From Actinomycetota bacterium (lineage in GTDB: Bacteria; Actinomycetota; Actinomycetes; Nanopelagicales; Nanopelagicaceae): 32,737 nucleotides of DNA. Positions 9,312 through 20,341 of the stretch are shown piece after piece. The stretch's first letter is position 1. Every line of letters starts with the position of its first letter. The stretch is from assembly GCA_016870835.1 (NCBI GenBank), contig VGAG01000012.1, forward strand, positions 1-32,737. The letters run 5' to 3'. The position numbers and the translations under genes are program-made. The notes beneath the pieces were generated by a model, which was not told the DNA's origin, searched no databases, and was given only the letters and a program-made list of their open reading frames with translations.

Positions 9312-9551
9312 TTGAAGATTGAGTTAGTCGTGAGTGACGATTGCCTTATCCCCCAATTAACAAAAGTTGAAGGACTTGTTAGGGTCTTAATAGGTATTCA
9401 GAATGACTTTGATGACATCCTCGATCTCTGCGCCGGTAACTTAAGTAATGATGAGATTGCTCATGTTCATAAACTCTGGTCTGATGATGAGTTTCCGCGA
9501 AATTTTCGGCGCGAAGGCCCAAATTTAATTATTACTTCCCGCGACGACTAA
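9312..9551 (+). CDS. small hypothetical protein
   Basis: A 79-residue acidic, probably cytosolic protein of unknown function, with no membrane segment, signal peptide or motif I recognise. The start chosen is TTG at 9312 because GGAG lies five bases upstream. An in-frame TTG at 9297 would add five residues, and the nearby ATG at 9300 is in another frame and stops after four codons. The C-terminal half is rich in Asp, Asn and aromatic residues (HKLWSDDEFPRNFRREG). Its 3' end overlaps the convergent XRE regulator by 20 bp. It uses AGG and ATA codons, which are rare in the neighbours, so it may be recently acquired or not a real gene. The reading frame is open and not the mirror of a gene over most of its length, which is the main support. 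Confidence 0.42.
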   Translation: MKIELVVSDDCLIPQLTKVEGLVRVLIGIQNDFDDILDLCAGNLSNDEIAHVHKLWSDDEFPRNFRREGPNLIITSRDD

Positions 9552-9795
9552 GGGCGCCGAGGGCTATCAAAAGAGTTTCGGGAGAAACTTCTAACGCCTC
9601 ACAAAGAGGTGCAATCACATCAATCCCAGGGGTCCGCTCTTGTCTGAAGTACCGCGAGAGCGAGCCCCTGTCTATCCCGGTCTTCTCTTGTAACTCTCCC
9701 AAGCCGGAGAATCCCAACTCACGCATCCGTTTTTGTAACCACTCTGCGCTCTCTTGCGCTGAAACTCGCGAACCTCTTTTGTACGCGTTCGCCAT
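9532..9795 (-). CDS. small XRE-family helix-turn-helix DNA-binding protein
   Basis: An 87-residue protein with a Cro/C1-type HTH at about residues 32-75 (LGELQEKTGIDRGSLSRYFRQ as the recognition unit, then CEALEVSPETLL). There is no extra effector domain, so any ligand response would need a partner. The start ATG has AGGAG five bases upstream, and this Shine-Dalgarno is formed by the cimA stop codon itself (TAGGAG). The gene is therefore the last, translationally coupled member of the ilvB-cimA operon. The function is unknown. Regulation of the operon or of the convergent small ORF is possible but unproven. Repressors of this size also occur as antitoxins, but no toxin partner is visible. Confidence 0.8.
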   Translation of the reverse strand: MANAYKRGSRVSAQESAEWLQKRMRELGFSGLGELQEKTGIDRGSLSRYFRQERTPGIDVIAPLCEALEVSPETLLIALGALSRRGK

Positions 9796-9803
9796 CTCAT
9801 CTC

Positions 9804-11393
9804 CTACTCGGGTTGTGCGCCTTTCCTAAGCAAACCATAAGTTAGGGCATCTTCAAGTGCCATCGCGGAGGCGGCGATTACATTCTCGTGGACTCCGACT
9901 GTGCTCCACTCGCCTTGGCCATCTGAGGTCTCAACAAGAACTCGCGTAACAGCTCCGGTGCCGAGTCTTCCCTCCAGGATGCGAACCTTGTAATCGGTTA
10001 GTTCAAGTCCCTTTATCTCAGGGAAGATACTTTCTAAACCATTACGAAGCGCATTATCGATTGCGTTAACTGGACCATTCCCGGAGCCAGAAGACTCAAT
10101 TCTCTTACCCCTAGCGATTACAACAACGCTTGCTCTTGAGGTGACGCTTTGATCTGGATTTTGATCGACAGTGGTCTCCCACTTCTCAATGGTGAAGTAC
10201 TTAGGACGCTTACCCTCGACTTCTTCGCGCAGTAAGAGTTCAAAGGAGGCATCTGCGGCTTCAAAGGTAAAACCTTTTGACTCTAACTCCTTTACTCGCT
10301 CAACAATTCTTGTTGGAATCGCTTTATCGTCGCCAAGTTTTATTCCTAGCTCCTGTGATTTCAATTCAATAGAAGCCCTTCCAGCCATATCTGAAACGAG
10401 CATTCGCATATCGTTTCCAACGCTTTCTGGGTCTTCATGTTGATACATAGCTGGATTGACCTTTATTGCAGAGGCATGTAGTCCGGCTTTATGGGCAAAG
10501 GCAGAGACACCTACATAAGGTTGGCGCGCGCTCGGAGAAACATTCGTAACTTCAGCAACGGCATGTGAGATTCTAAAAGCTTCTTCTAACTTACCTTCAG
10601 GGAGAACTTGCTTATTCTTCTTTAGCTGCAAATTTGCAACTATTGAGACGAGATCAGCATTACCGGTCCGCTCACCGTAACCATTTATCGTTCCTTGGAC
10701 ATGAGTCACACCGGCAGCAACAGCTGCAAGTGAGTTGGCGATGGCACAGCCGGTGTCGTTATGGCAATGAATTCCGAGGCGAGCCGAGCTCTTTCCGAGC
10801 ACTTCATGTACAACTTGGGAGAGTTCATCAGGCAGCATTCCGCCGTTGGTATCACAGAGCGCAATTACATCAGCTCCGGATTCTGCTGCGACTCGGACAA
10901 CTTCAAGAGCGTAATTTGCATTTGAAGAATAGCCATCAAAGAAATGTTCGGCATCTAGAAATACGCGCTGACCGTTCCTGCGTAAGAATGTAATTGAGTC
11001 GCGAATCATGGCGAGGTTCTCATCGAGTGAGGTACGAAGTGCGAGTTCGACATGGCGATCGTGAGATTTAGCAACAAGAGTTACAACTGGGGCGCCCGAG
11101 TCGGCGAGTGCTCGAAGTAGCGCATCATCTTCGGCTTTTACATTTGGGCGACGGGTTGCACCGAAGGCAACAAAGGTTGCGTTCTTTAATTTCAATTCGC
11201 GCTTAGCTAATTGGAAGAATTCAGTATCTTTTGGATTAGCCCCAGGCCACCCACCTTCAATAAAACCCACCCCCAGGTCATCTAGGTGGCGGGCGATAGT
11301 TAATTTGTCGTGAACTGAGAGATTTAAGCCTTCTTGCTGGGCTCCATCTCTAAGTGTGGTGTCATAAACGTGGAATGAATCAGAAAGTGCCAT
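9804..11393 (-). CDS. cimA: (R)-citramalate synthase
   Basis: A 529-residue enzyme of the LeuA/HMG-lyase-like family. The opening VYDTTLRDGAQQEGLNLS contains the catalytic Arg15-Asp16, and HCHNDTG gives the metal-binding His pair. The C-terminal LeuA-type regulatory domain follows (about residues 390-525). The start and the EGGWPGANPKD segment fit the CimA group rather than 2-isopropylmalate or homocitrate synthases. It condenses pyruvate and acetyl-CoA to citramalate, a threonine-independent entry to 2-oxobutyrate and isoleucine. The next steps would use LeuCD (not in this window) and LeuB (present). Its ATG overlaps the ilvE TGA by one base. Allosteric inhibition by isoleucine is expected from the family. 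Confidence 0.92.
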   Translation of the reverse strand: MALSDSFHVYDTTLRDGAQQEGLNLSVHDKLTIARHLDDLGVGFIEGGWPGANPKDTEFFQLAKRELKLKNATFVAFGATRRPNVKAEDDALLRALADSGAPVVTLVAKSHDRHVELALRTSLDENLAMIRDSITFLRRNGQRVFLDAEHFFDGYSSNANYALEVVRVAAESGADVIALCDTNGGMLPDELSQVVHEVLGKSSARLGIHCHNDTGCAIANSLAAVAAGVTHVQGTINGYGERTGNADLVSIVANLQLKKNKQVLPEGKLEEAFRISHAVAEVTNVSPSARQPYVGVSAFAHKAGLHASAIKVNPAMYQHEDPESVGNDMRMLVSDMAGRASIELKSQELGIKLGDDKAIPTRIVERVKELESKGFTFEAADASFELLLREEVEGKRPKYFTIEKWETTVDQNPDQSVTSRASVVVIARGKRIESSGSGNGPVNAIDNALRNGLESIFPEIKGLELTDYKVRILEGRLGTGAVTRVLVETSDGQGEWSTVGVHENVIAASAMALEDALTYGLLRKGAQPE

Positions 11394-12478
11394 CAGCAGA
11401 CTTTCTTCATCCAGCCATGTTTATCTTCGATTGTTCCGTGTTGAATTCCAAGTAAGTGATTACGGATCTCCATGGTGATAGTGCCCGGAGTTCCATCGCC
11501 GGTAATCCATGTTCCGGCTGCGCTCTTTGCGGTTCCAACTGGAGCGATTACAGCTGCGGTTCCACAGGCAAAGATTTCAGAGATCTCACCGCTGGCAACG
11601 CCATCGCGCCACTCATCGATATTGATCATTCCCTCTTCGGTCTTATAGCCAAGATCTCGTGCAACGGTTAGAACAGAGTCGCGCGTTATTCCGGGGAGAA
11701 GAGTTCCGGTTAATTTAGGAGTAAAGATAGTTGCGTCTCTGCCTTTTCCTTTTACAAAGTAAAGGTTCATTCCGCCCATCTCTTCAACCCAGCGACGCTC
11801 GATTGCATCTAACCAAACAACTTGATCACAACCTTTAGTCGCTGCTTGCTGTTGGGCAAGAAGAGAAGCGGCGTAGTTACCACCACACTTTGCCTCGCCT
11901 GTTCCACCGAGTGCAGCGCGGACATATTCAGTTGAGATCCAAACCGTTACCGCTTTAGCGGCATTGAAATAAGCAGCAGCTGGTGTTGCAATCACGGAGA
12001 AGAGAGCTTTATTTGAAGGGCGTACTCCAAGTCCAACTTCAGTTGCAATCATGAAGGGGCGGATATAAAGAGATTCACCGATTTTCTTGGGAACCCACGG
12101 CGCATCTTCGCGAACTAGCGCTTCAACACACGAAACAAAGTCGGCGACTGGTAATTCAGGAAGAGTTATTCGCGCGGCGCTCTTGGCAAAGCGAAGTCCA
12201 TTTGCATCTGGGCGAAATAGCGCAATTGAGCCATCTGGTTGTGAGTAGGCCTTCATCCCCTCGAAAATCTCTTGACCATAGTGAAAAACCATGGTTGCCG
12301 GGTCTAAAGAGAGCGGTCCATAAGGACATACCTTCGCATCTTGCCAACCGTTAGCGGCGCTCCATTCGGCAAGAACCATATGGTCGGTGAAGTACTTTCC
12401 AAAACCAGGTTCAGCAACATAGCCATCTCTAGTTGCATCTGGGACCGGATTTGGAGAGCGCTTTATTTCAATTTTCAT
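11393..12478 (-). CDS. ilvE: branched-chain amino acid aminotransferase
   Basis: A 361-residue fold-type IV PLP enzyme performing the last step of valine, leucine and isoleucine synthesis. The PLP lysine is Lys197 in [26 protein letters not shown] (about 65-78) and [10 protein letters not shown] (about 138-147) are hallmark segments of the long BCAT group typical of actinobacteria. The start overlaps the leuB stop as ATGA, with GGAG seven bases upstream. A D-amino acid transaminase or ADC lyase is excluded by length and context. Confidence 0.96.
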
Positions 12479-13508
12479 TTGATTGCTCCGGCGAGCGCTG
12501 CGCCAATCTCACTTGTGGAACGTTTCTTATCGCCCCTTGTTGCTAAATCGCTTTCAACCGCACGCTCAACATCAAGGGCAGCATCTTCATGGCCAAGATG
12601 ACGGAGCATCAAGGCAACTGACATTACAGTTGCTGTTGGATCAGCAATTCCTTTACCAGCGATATCGGGGGCTGAGCCATGGACTGGTTCAAACATTGAT
12701 GGGAATTTTCGCTCTGGATTTATATTTCCAGATGCAGCAAGTCCAATTCCGCCGCATATTGCAGCTGCGATATCGGTCAAGATATCTCCGAATAAATTAT
12801 CTGTTACTACAACATCAAAGCGTTCTGGGTTAGTAACAAAGAACATCGAGGCCGCATCGACATGGAGATAATCTGTACTTACTTCTGGAAACTCTTCTGC
12901 AACTTCGTTGAAGGTACGGGTCCATAAACTTCCAGCTCGCACGAGAACATTATTTTTGTGAACAAGCGTCAATTTCTTTCGTGGTCGCTTCATCGCACGG
13001 GCGAAGGCATCGCGAATTACGCGCTCAGCGCCTCGGCGAGTGTTAAGGCTCTCCTCCGTTGCAATTTCAGCGCTAGTTCCTTCGGCAAGGACGCCACCTG
13101 CGCCAACATAAGGACCTTCGGTTCCTTCTCGTACAACTATGAAATCTATTTGGGATTCGGTGCGAAGTGGGCTCTTAACGCTTGGATATAACTTTGCTGG
13201 ACGAAGATTTACATAGTGATCAAAAGTGAAGCGAAGTTTTAGCAGAAGTCCGCGCTCTAGTACCCCGCTTGGAACACTTGGATCACCTACTGCGCCAAGG
13301 AGAATCACATCAAAAGCCTTTAATTCCTCAAGAATTGGGGCGGGAAGGGTCTCACCACTCTTATGCCAGAGCCGTGCGCCTAGTTCAAATTCTTTCTTAT
13401 TAAACGAAAGTCCGTATTTCTTCTCTACCGCGGCAAGTACGCGCAAACCCTCAGCGACGACTTCGGGTCCGATGCCATCGCCTGGGATTACTGCAAGTTT
13501 GAAGGAAC

Positions 13509-13512
<4 letters not shown>
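12475..13512 (-). CDS. leuB: 3-isopropylmalate dehydrogenase
   Basis: A 345-residue NAD-dependent beta-decarboxylating dehydrogenase. It oxidises 3-isopropylmalate in leucine synthesis and, with CimA present, probably also 3-methylmalate in the citramalate route to isoleucine. Motifs are [10 protein letters not shown] near the N-terminus, [20 protein letters not shown] for substrate binding, [20 protein letters not shown] with catalytic Asp residues, and [13 protein letters not shown] for NAD binding. The actinobacterial short insert pattern is present. Both ends overlap neighbours by 4 nt (serA stop and ilvE start). Confidence 0.95.
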
Positions 13513-16718
<3,206 letters not shown>

Positions 16719-16720
16719 GG

Positions 16721-18460
16721 TTATAGTTCCTGTGAATCCCAATCCGGCGCCATCTCTTTGGCAATCATGATGTCATCGTTAGAAGTTCCAGCTGCAACCA
16801 TCGGCCAGACCATCGCATCGCGGTGAACGCTAAAGTCAACAACGACTGGTGCATCATTTATTGAATTAGCTTCTTTGATGATGCGATCAACATCGCCCTT
16901 GGATTCGCACCTTAATCCCACGCAACCCATCGCTTCGGCAAGTTTTGCAAAATCTGGGATCCGCTTTGAATGAAGATCGGTATTTGAGTAACGCTCTTTA
17001 TAGAACAAGGTCTGCCATTGACGCACCATGCCGAGGCTCTCGTTATTAATGATTGCAACTTTGACCGGAATATCATTTAGCGCGCAGGTAACTAATTCTT
17101 GATTGGTCATTTGGAAGCAACCATCGCCATCAATCGCCCATACCGGGGTATCTGGGGCGCCAACTTTTGCACCCATCGCAGCAGGAACTGCGTAACCCAT
17201 AGTTCCAAGTCCGCCAGAGTTCAACCAACTTCTTGGATTTTCATACTTGATAAATTGCGAAGCCCACATCTGGTGCTGTCCGACCCCCGCAACATAAATT
17301 GCATCCGGGCCAGTTAATTGACCAATTCTTTCGATTACATATTGGGGCGAGACCGATCCATCACTTGGTTCGTTATAGCCGAGTGGATAGGTAGAACGAA
17401 GTGAGTTCATCTGGCGCCACCAAGTTGTTAGATCTGGTTTGCGCTTTTTAAATTCTTGCTCAACGGCCGGGGCAAGTTCACGCATGATGGGAGCGAGATC
17501 TCCAATTATCGGGACATCGGCATAGCGGTTCTTACCGATTTCAGCTGGGTCGATATCGGCATGAATGATCTTTGCATTTACAGCGAAAGTACTTAGCTTT
17601 CCGGTAACTCGATCATCAAAACGAGCGCCCAGGGTTATCAAGAGATCCGCCTTTTGTAAGGCAGTAACAGCAGCAACTGTTCCATGCATGCCCGGCATAC
17701 CAAGATGTTGCGGGTGCGAATCTGGGAATGCACCGCGCGCCATCAAAGTTGTTACGACTGGTGCGCCAACAACTTCAGCTAATTTAAGTAGTTCCTTTGC
17801 GGCATTTGCCTTAATGACTCCACCGCCGACATAAAAGACTGGCTTAGTTGATTCAGCAATTAGAGCTGCCGCATCGCGAATCGACTTTGAATCTGGTTCT
17901 AGTTGCGGGCGATAACCACGAAGTTCAGCGCGCTTTGGGTAAGTGAAGGTTGTCATCTTCTGTAGGGCATCTTTTGCAATATCAACAAGAACTGGACCGG
18001 GGCGACCAGAGCCGGCGATGTAAAAGGCCTCAGCAATCGCTTTAGGAATATCGAGTGGATCTGTAATTAAATAATTGTGTTTTGTTATTGGCATTGTGAT
18101 GCCACGGATATCTGCCTCTTGAAACGCATCGGTTCCAATCGCAGGACCTGGGACTTGGCCGGTTATTGCAACCATGGGAACTGAGTCCATATGTGCATCA
18201 GCAAGTGGCGTTACAAGATTTGTAGCTCCCGGTCCCGAAGTTGCGATACAGACGCCAACTTTTCCAGTGACTTGCGCATAACCAGTAGCTGCGTGGCCGG
18301 CGCCTTGTTCATGGCGAACCAATATGTGGCGAATCTTTGAATCATAAATTGGGTCGTATGCCGGAAGGATGGCTCCGCCTGGGATGCCGAACATGACATC
18401 AACGCCTGCACGCTCAAGTGATTTCACTAGGGCCTGGGCCCCAGTTATTTCATTGCTCAT
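16721..18460 (-). CDS. ilvB: acetolactate synthase large (catalytic) subunit
   Basis: A 579-residue thiamine-diphosphate enzyme that makes acetolactate and acetohydroxybutyrate, the first common step to valine, leucine and isoleucine. The catalytic Glu51 is in [11 protein letters not shown]. The FAD-associated central domain and the ThDP motif [12 protein letters not shown]...INN in the C-terminal third are intact. The ATG has a strong AAGGAAAGGAG leader. It is the first structural gene after the attenuator and is followed two bases later by ilvN, so the holoenzyme is made stoichiometrically. Confidence 0.97.
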
Positions 18461-18501
18461 GTTTGACTCCTTTCCTTAAATATTTCGCGCCCTATTAATG
18501 C

Positions 18502-18525
18502 AAAAACCCTCAGTTTCCTGAGGGT
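18502..18525 (-). terminator. ilvB attenuator terminator
   Basis: On the minus strand ACCCTCAG, a GAAA tetraloop and CTGAGGGT form an 8-bp stem followed by a run of T (18506-18502). It lies about 40 bp ahead of the ilvB start and after the leader peptide, the expected place for an attenuator. Confidence 0.9.
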
Positions 18526-18554
18526 GCGCGTGATCTTCTATTTAGATCACGCGC
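18526..18554 (-). promoter_or_regulatory. attenuator hairpin upstream of the terminator
   Basis: A perfect 10-bp stem (GCGCGTGATC and GATCACGCGC with a 9-nt loop) abuts the terminator with no spacer. Its 5' arm contains the leader peptide's TGA stop codon, so a ribosome on the leader will decide whether it can fold. I could not see by eye a convincing competing pairing between its 3' arm and the terminator. Confidence 0.75.
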
Positions 18555-18597
18555 AACGAATCACCACCACTGAAGAGAGAACGGTGTTCGTTGACAT
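18547..18597 (-). CDS. ilv leader peptide (attenuation sensor)
   Basis: A 16-codon ORF encoding MSTNTVLSSVVVIRCA. Six of the 16 residues are branched-chain amino acids, including a Val-Val-Val-Ile run at 10-13. The ATG lies about eight bases after the predicted -10, so the mRNA would begin at or within a base or two of the start codon and no Shine-Dalgarno is possible. The ilvBNC leader of Corynebacterium glutamicum is likewise known to be translated without a ribosome binding site. When charged Val/Leu/Ile tRNAs are short the ribosome should stall at the run and allow transcription to reach ilvB. Too short for gene finders, it is supported by composition, position and the terminator that follows. 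Confidence 0.85.
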   Translation of the reverse strand: MSTNTVLSSVVVIRCA

Positions 18598-18604
18598 GGG
18601 CAGA

Positions 18605-18634
18605 ATTATTCCGTCACGAAATGGGTGTAGTCAA
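18605..18634 (-). promoter_or_regulatory. promoter of the ilvB leader/operon
   Basis: TTGACT (18634-18629) and AATAAT (18610-18605) are 18 bp apart, each one base off consensus. The predicted start of transcription falls at 18597-18599, on the ATG of the leader peptide. Confidence 0.7.
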
Positions 18635-18636
18635 CC

Positions 18637-18656
18637 CCTGAGATGCTCATCTCAGG
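18637..18656 (-). repeat. perfect palindromic hairpin after ilvD, next to the ilv promoter
   Basis: CCTGAGATG and its exact complement CATCTCAGG are separated by two bases. It lies 8 bp after the ilvD stop and two bases before the -35 of the ilv promoter. It could end or protect the ilvD transcript (no T-run follows) or be an operator for a dimeric regulator. Confidence 0.6.
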
Positions 18657-18664
18657 ATTTGGAA

Positions 18665-20341
18665 CTAGTCGCAGACCGCTCCCCGCGAGGCTGAACCCAC
18701 TAACTTCACATATTTACCGAGAACGCCGGATGTGTATCGCGGAGGAAGTGGCTTAAACGATTTACGGCGCTCAACCAATTCCTTCTCATCAACTAGCAAA
18801 TCAAGAGTGCGCGCTTTGATATCGATACGGATGCGATCGCCATTTTTAACAAGTGCAATTGGACCGCCATCAACAGCTTCTGGTGAGACATGGCCAACAC
18901 ATAGACCAGTTGTGCCACCTGAGAATCTGCCATCAGTAATTAGCAATACTGATTTACCAAGTCCAGCGCCTTTGATTGCGCCCGTAATCATCAACATCTC
19001 GCGCATTCCAGGTCCACCTTTCGGACCTTCATATCTAATTACAACTACATCGCCAGCTTGGATTGTTCCATTTTCAAGCGCTTCCATCGCGCTCTGCTCT
19101 CGTTCGAATACTCGAGCAGGACCTTCAAATGAATCAACGCCAACTCCAGCAACTTTTGTTACTGCACCTTCTGGAATAAGTGAGCCAGAGAGGATTGTGA
19201 TTCCACCACTTGCGGCAAGAGGTGAAGAGGTTGCTTTCAAAATCTGGCCATCTGGATCAGGGGGTGAAAGCTCGGCAAGATTCTCTTTCATAGTCTTGCC
19301 AGTAACTGTTAAGCAATCACCATGAATTAGTCCTGCATCAAGGAGCGCGCGTAGAACTACAGGAACGCCGCCAACCTTGTCGACATCGCTCATCACATAT
19401 TTTCCGAATGGCTTTAAATCACCAAGGAGTGGCACCTTTGAACCAACGCGATGGAAATCATTCATCTCTAGCTCAACTTTTGCTTCATGGGCGAGTGCAA
19501 GTAAGTGGAGAACGGCGTTTGTGGAACCGCCGAGTGCCATGAGGATTGTGATCGCATTTTCAAATGCTTGCTTAGTCAAAATGTCGCGGGTGCGAATTCC
19601 CTGGCGAATTAATTCAACGACTGCGGCTCCGGATTTAACAGCGTAAGCATCGCGTCGTCTATCAACCGAAGGTGGCGCAGCCGAGCCAGGAAGTGAGAGG
19701 CCAAGCGCTTCGCCAATCGATGCCATCGTATTTGCGGTGTACATACCGCCGCATGCACCTTCACCGGGGCAAATCGCGCGCTCAATCTTGTCTACTTCTT
19801 CTTGCGAGATAAGTCCTCGGGCACAAGCTCCTACTGCTTCAAAAGCATCAATCAGCGTTACATCGCGGCCATCTACTTTTCCGGGAAGTATCGAACCGGC
19901 ATATACGAGAACGCTTGCAACATTAAGCCTCGCTGCCGCCATCATCATTCCTGGAAGTGACTTATCGCAACCTGCAAAGGTAACTAAGCCATCAAGGCGT
20001 TCTGCTTCCATCACAGTTTCAACTGAGTCAGCAATTACCTCTCGTGAAACGAGTGAGAAATGCATTCCTTCATGTCCCATAGAAATTCCATCTGAGACGG
20101 AGATAGTTCCGAATTGCATCGGGAAACCACCGGCATCAATCACACCTTGCTTTGATGCTTTAGCGAGGCGATCGAGTGACAAATTACATGGGGTGATTTC
20201 ATTCCAAGATGAAGCAATTCCAATTTGAGGCTTGACCCAATCAGCATCAGTCATGCCAACCGCGCGAAGCATTCCGCGAGCGGGCGCACGCTCTAAGCCA
20301 TCAGTTACAAGATAGGAACGGGGCTTCATTGGATTTTTCAT
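18665..20341 (-). CDS. ilvD: dihydroxyacid dehydratase
   Basis: A 558-residue iron-sulfur dehydratase making 2-oxoisovalerate and 3-methyl-2-oxovalerate. Likely cluster cysteines are Cys52 (ITPCNLSL), Cys125 ([10 protein letters not shown]) and Cys197 ([14 protein letters not shown]), the pattern of the IlvD/Edd family. The substrate context favours IlvD over phosphogluconate dehydratase. The ATG overlaps the gatB stop as ATGA, with AGGACA upstream. Although ilvB follows downstream, the attenuator and a palindrome lie between them. ilvD is thus read with gatCAB and is not itself under the attenuator. Confidence 0.95.

Follow-up and report, generated by a model that had tools for sequence, protein, structure and literature searches.

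The ilvB upstream region of this contig likely carries a ribosome-mediated transcription attenuator with an apparently leaderless start, which would sense valine ahead of the ilvB operon. The window, i.e., the whole 32,737-nt stretch of DNA analysed, is contig 12 of a 1.0-Mb, 49-contig MAG with an estimated completeness of 76%. Compared by IlvB, it stands closest, among named relatives, to Candidatus Nanopelagicales and to freshwater actinobacteria of the acI type. A promoter, a leader ORF, a hairpin (B) and a terminator (C) occupy the minus strand from the ilvD stop (18665) to the ilvB ATG (18460), arranged as follows:

18639..18654, minus strand: palindrome TGAGATGAGCATCTCA, a candidate operator (perfect 6-4-6, TGAGAT-N4-ATCTCA), directly 5' of the -35
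18629..18634, minus strand: -35 hexamer TTGACT (promoter scan; TTGAC kept in relatives)
18605..18610, minus strand: -10 hexamer AATAAT (promoter scan), 7 nt 5' of the ATG
18547..18597, minus strand: leader peptide ORF MSTNTVLSSVVVIRCA, 16 codons, no Shine-Dalgarno sequence
18559..18570, minus strand: control codons GTG GTG GTG ATT (Val10-Ile13), a conserved, GTG-rich V(V)VI run
18525..18555, minus strand: hairpin B (TGCGCGTGATCT / AGATCACGCGCA, arms 18555-18544 / 18536-18525), predicted to be ribosome-sensed, holding the leader stop; proposed antiterminator
18502..18525, minus strand: intrinsic terminator C, called by sequence (ACCCTCAG-GAAA-CTGAGGGT plus T-run; stem 18525-18506, T-run to 18502)
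18467..18473, minus strand: Shine-Dalgarno sequence AAAGGAG of ilvB, called by sequence

The promoter, the 16-codon peptide and the terminator of the original prediction were each found at the minus-strand place given there. Its 10-bp hairpin is also present, with a stem of 11-12 bp rather than 10.

Positions 18300-18900 were scanned for promoters and for terminators. TTGACT-18-AATAAT was the sole promoter and C the sole terminator; since each scan is expected to return ∼0.5 hits by chance, it is conservation that carries the weight for both. The -10 hexamer, separated from the -35 by an 18-nt spacer, is followed after 7 nt (TCTGCCC) by the leader ATG (18597-18595) without a Shine-Dalgarno sequence, as had been read earlier (about seven bases). 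Of the 120 positive Nanopelagicales regions described below, 101 have a gap of 6 nt and 19 one of 7 nt. Judged from the -10 spacing, the transcript appears to start at or next to the ATG at 18597, i.e., to be leaderless.

Upstream regions of ilvB were drawn from named genome contigs, 24 genus genomes and 201 family genomes, giving 129 Nanopelagicales regions that include some genomes twice (present in two collections). To count as positive, a region had to show a promoter, a terminator and a leader containing three or more branched-chain amino acid (BCAA) codons in a row; 120 of the 129 regions did. Among the other nine, L006 and L096 are cut or masked, and L210 and L239 narrowly missed the pattern with the unit plainly there. 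Four regions (L014, L218, L236, and L237; one lineage or several) keep the promoter, hairpins and terminator with a leader, MLSRISVRLERAS, from which the Val/Ile run is absent; they offer a natural test case for the unit without Val sensing. In L189 the promoter and leader are missing, and the end of ilvD passes straight into a remnant ahead of the terminator.

The leader peptides of the genus (MSTNT(V/F/L)xSSVVVIRCA, MSANTSSVSIIVSVVVIRCA, MSAKSTSVIALVSVVIRCA, MTTKTSSLSVVVIRCA) have a variable N-terminus, change in length by whole codons and are constant at the end. Loss of the Val/Ile codons in close relatives, proposed earlier as a test, was not observed: all genus members that could be read retain V(V)VI. 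The VL pair (codons 6-7), which had been put forward as control codons together with VVVI, is replaced by F-S, L-S and other pairs within the genus. GTG makes up 240 of the 293 run Val codons (82%) in the family leaders vs. 9% of Val codons in the window genes and 10-22% in the operons of relatives; the control positions are thus largely taken by a minor Val codon. Leader Val codons outside the run are GTG in 22 of 60 cases. The leader stop (TGA, 18549-18547) lies inside hairpin B in the window, as predicted, but this is not a conserved feature: some relatives have the stop ahead of B (e.g., MSTTFVVVI*) and others within it, and its position is therefore not a fixed quantity.

Two spacings are kept closely. 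For 89% of distinct leaders, B starts 2-5 nt after the last BCAA codon, against 5% of shuffles, and B and C adjoin or overlap by up to 2 nt (-2 to +1 nt) in 93% (shuffled 16%); in the window the two have one base in common, A18525. Other Actinobacteria (Streptomyces, Actinomadura, and Kribbella among them) contributed 24 distinct leaders, of which 79% have the run-to-B spacing and 83% the B-to-C spacing, and hairpin B was likewise flush with C in the Streptomyces loci examined. The leader RNA (∼96-97 nt) folds at -45.5 kcal/mol compared to -23.2 ± 3.1 kcal/mol for dinucleotide shuffles (z = -7.3). When RNAalifold was applied to a MAFFT alignment, unequal loop lengths left just short stems for B and C, and the stems were therefore compared one by one. 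Hairpin B was paired in 41 distinct stems despite many sequence changes, with the arms chosen by complementarity. The minimum-free-energy 5' fold over the peptide start sits in the variable N-terminus and was not counted as a conserved part. Searching the window against Rfam (T-box and riboswitch families included) gave no match at gathering score; allowing E up to 10 added only a chance hit on the opposite strand.

To model the ribosome, we constrained the folding with an assumed footprint whose leading edge lies 12 nt from the first A-site base, all RNA 5' of that edge being occupied. Mean pairing of B in the window was 0.94 with Val1 or Val2 in the A site, 0.75 with Val3, 0.48 with Ile and at most 0.03 beyond. 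The dependence on ribosome position was similar in relatives and in Streptomyces-type leaders. With simulated ribosomes, B is therefore kept at the first Val codons and melted beyond Ile, i.e., in this model it is so placed as to read stalling on the Val run. The terminator behaved differently from a classical partner: equilibrium folding of the window gave a pairing of 0.95-0.99 for C at every ribosome position, with no exclusion by B, and no classical 2:3 antiterminator helix incompatible with the terminator stem was found. B is thus no equilibrium excluder of C in the model, and the antitermination step would rest on a presumed steric or kinetic effect. Either B would hinder C in one of these ways at the polymerase, or the model omits a further interaction. 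We also considered whether the terminator 3' arm (ACUGAGGG) could pair with UCUUCAGU of the peptide-coding part, much as proposed for ilvB-II. This was rejected since UCAGU is missing in several relatives (e.g., MSTTFVVVI and MATAVVI leaders), and since a ribosome stalled on Val would cover the site.

The proposed switch would work as follows, the direction of the response being taken by analogy with C. glutamicum and M. tuberculosis, for which mutants of codons or of the terminator have been examined experimentally. Transcription would begin at or adjacent to the ATG at 18597, and a ribosome would load on the leaderless 5' end and translate MSTNTVLSSVVVIRCA as RNA polymerase produces the hairpins. 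With ample Val-tRNA (probably Ile-tRNA too), the ribosome would pass GTG-GTG-GTG-ATT to the stop and cover the left arm of B, leaving terminator C free to halt transcription near 18502. Under Val shortage, it would stall on the GTG codons with its leading edge just short of B; B could then form flush on the base of C and hinder it, and the polymerase would continue into ilvBNC-serA-leuB-ilvE-cimA. One consequence speaks against this reading. If B alone antiterminates, a ribosome-free transcript should read through, but loss of the leader start codon in C. glutamicum cut expression by 80% (PMC11857589).

The palindrome next to the promoter was missed in the original prediction, although it touches the promoter. 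Most Nanopelagicales ilvB promoters retain it, generally together with an extra TCTCA or TCCA half upstream; it is also seen at L112:653-668. We rejected it as a terminator of ilvD: it has no T-run and its spacing to the -35 is fixed. A genome-wide TGAGAT-N4-ATCTCA regulon was also rejected, as the other two exact matches in the genome lie inside ORFs. The conserved palindrome at the promoter hints at a further level of control, exerted by a protein. In the same genome, an IclR regulator of 246 aa (G000:C43:662-1402) lies divergent to a gene of the aconitase family, which we read as leuC; this is the arrangement of ltbR/ndgR-leuCD. The related sequence TCTCA-N5-TGAGAT has a single mismatch-free site in this genome, at the divergent ltbR-leuC promoter, and a near form occurs in the ltbR upstream spacer of other genus members. 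An inverted repeat TCTCA-N5-TGAGA is also present in two relatives, 5' of a gene called by eye as DnaB-like (L245:1248 and L246:1248). Of the proteins that might act at the palindrome, an IclR regulator of the LtbR/NdgR type is the strongest candidate. This is a lead only, because the published motif of S. coelicolor NdgR, which binds 5' of ilvB in that species, differs from the palindrome (PMC4340878).

These observations also lend some support to an alternative in which a repressor bound at the palindrome accounts for most of the Val response, and the translated leader and terminator set a fixed readthrough only. Mutation of the candidate control codons in the S. coelicolor ilvB leader was reportedly without effect (PMC1262725), which agrees with such a repressor and counts against attenuation. 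Yet a fixed terminator needs no run of minor GTG codons held 2-5 nt from B across genera, and in M. tuberculosis the change of LVVI to AAAA abolishes induction (PMC13236596). We regard the repressor explanation as unlikely.

Two other explanations are much less probable still. In a pyrBI-like scheme, a terminating ribosome would suppress termination by its proximity, so that fast translation gives readthrough and stalling gives termination. The geometry would allow it, as an E. coli ribosome at the stop represses a terminator less than ∼27 nt away (PMC4824070) and the distance here is 21 nt. Such a scheme would turn a biosynthetic operon on when Val is plentiful, contrary to the response measured in M. 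tuberculosis (PMC13236596), and it is the stop-to-terminator distance that varies (18-32 nt in intact relatives) while the run-to-B distance is constant. Equally improbable is the reading that C merely serves the ilvD transcript from upstream, the small ORF being there by accident. In its favor, ilvD stops at 18665, and the scan placed no T-tracted terminator in the stretch from there to the ilvB promoter. Against it stand this conserved promoter, which sits between ilvD and C, the codon-bounded length changes and the GTG-rich run.

Downstream of the attenuator is an apparent operon of contiguous genes, in which neighbors overlap or stand no more than 39 nt apart:

16721..18460, minus strand: ilvB, acetolactate synthase large subunit (NF005860, 1078 bits)
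16167..16742, minus strand: ilvN, acetolactate synthase small subunit (NF008864, 160 bits)
15094..16128, minus strand: ilvC, ketol-acid reductoisomerase (NF004017)
13509..15128, minus strand: serA, phosphoglycerate dehydrogenase (TIGR01327)
12475..13512, minus strand: leuB, 3-isopropylmalate dehydrogenase (NF002898)
11393..12478, minus strand: ilvE, branched-chain aminotransferase (NF009897)
9804..11393, minus strand: cimA, citramalate synthase (TIGR00977)
9532..9795, minus strand: XRE/HTH_3 protein of 87 aa (PF01381, 34.3 bits), last gene of the row

No convincing internal terminator was detected between ilvB and the XRE gene, the scan results being at chance level. Eight genes had been placed under one switch, and they are indeed contiguous on this contig; the conserved set is seven. 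The order ilvBNC-serA-leuB-ilvE-cimA is kept in the five relatives whose operons were examined, among which the XRE gene is confined to the genus of the window (L240 and L244 carry it, L241-L243 lack it). The XRE protein gave a weak PADLOC match to RmrA (19.6 bits), which probably reflects the HTH alone.

Leader peptides and terminators ahead of ilvB have been described in Corynebacterium, Mycobacterium, and Streptomyces (PMC1262725), and the features of this family are found here by sequence and folding: a BCAA-run ORF 5' of ilvB, an intervening terminator and, between the control codons and this terminator, a predicted ribosome-sensitive hairpin. The closest likeness is to the C. glutamicum ilvBNC/ilvB-II motif (PMC11857589, PMC10272879), which also has an RBS-free BCAA peptide at the 5' end with a Val run, then a hairpin and a terminator with touching stems, ahead of ilvBNC. 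The leader in C. glutamicum is leaderless and attenuation was established by mutation (PMC11857589). The original prediction assigned the present region to this kind of attenuator, and the comparative evidence supports the assignment (120 of 129 regions, with V(V)VI kept). The two differ in detail: H2 and the terminator H3 of C. glutamicum have a GCC trinucleotide in common, whereas B and C here have one base; an H1 anti-antiterminator was proposed there, whereas the 5' fold here lies in the variable part of the peptide; and leader to ilvB measures ∼137 nt here vs. 292 bp. For C. glutamicum a "fast" boundary exchange was proposed (PMC11857589), which would likewise imply steric or kinetic hindrance of C by B.

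The experimentally tested M. tuberculosis ilvB1NC system (PMC13236596) is similar in having a BCAA uORF (LVVI), a ribosome at the stop that masks the antiterminator, and a terminator before ilvB1; it differs in its longer leader (∼168 nt), for which two mutually exclusive structures were proposed. In S. lividans a leaderless 13-aa leader, ilvL (MRTRILVLGKRVG), precedes ilvBHC (PMC8079986). The Streptomyces run is ILVL rather than the VVVI found here (PMC8079986, PMC1262725). As in enterobacterial trp/his-type attenuators, stalling on control codons would decide termination; unlike in those, no terminator-excluding 2:3 pairing was found and the leader has no Shine-Dalgarno sequence. We raise, tentatively, the possibility that the actinobacterial ilvB attenuator is a distinct variant, in which a ribosome-gated hairpin placed flush (-2 to +1 nt) at the terminator base would act not by base competition but by sterically or kinetically hindering terminator closure in the polymerase exit channel.

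The type of switch is already known in Actinobacteria. What the sequences point to here is a compact, streamlined and well-conserved form in a lineage for which our literature search found no report of an ilvB attenuator. Well over a hundred aligned examples of this very compact form are now available, and the alignment fixes its spacing rules: the fixed quantities are codon to hairpin (2-5 nt) and hairpin to terminator (∼0 nt), rather than the position of the stop codon. The alignment also suggests that control of the terminator is not by base-pair exclusion, at least at equilibrium, and this mechanistic point becomes testable. Leaderless BCAA attenuation would thereby be extended, as a prediction, to abundant and streamlined freshwater Actinobacteria.
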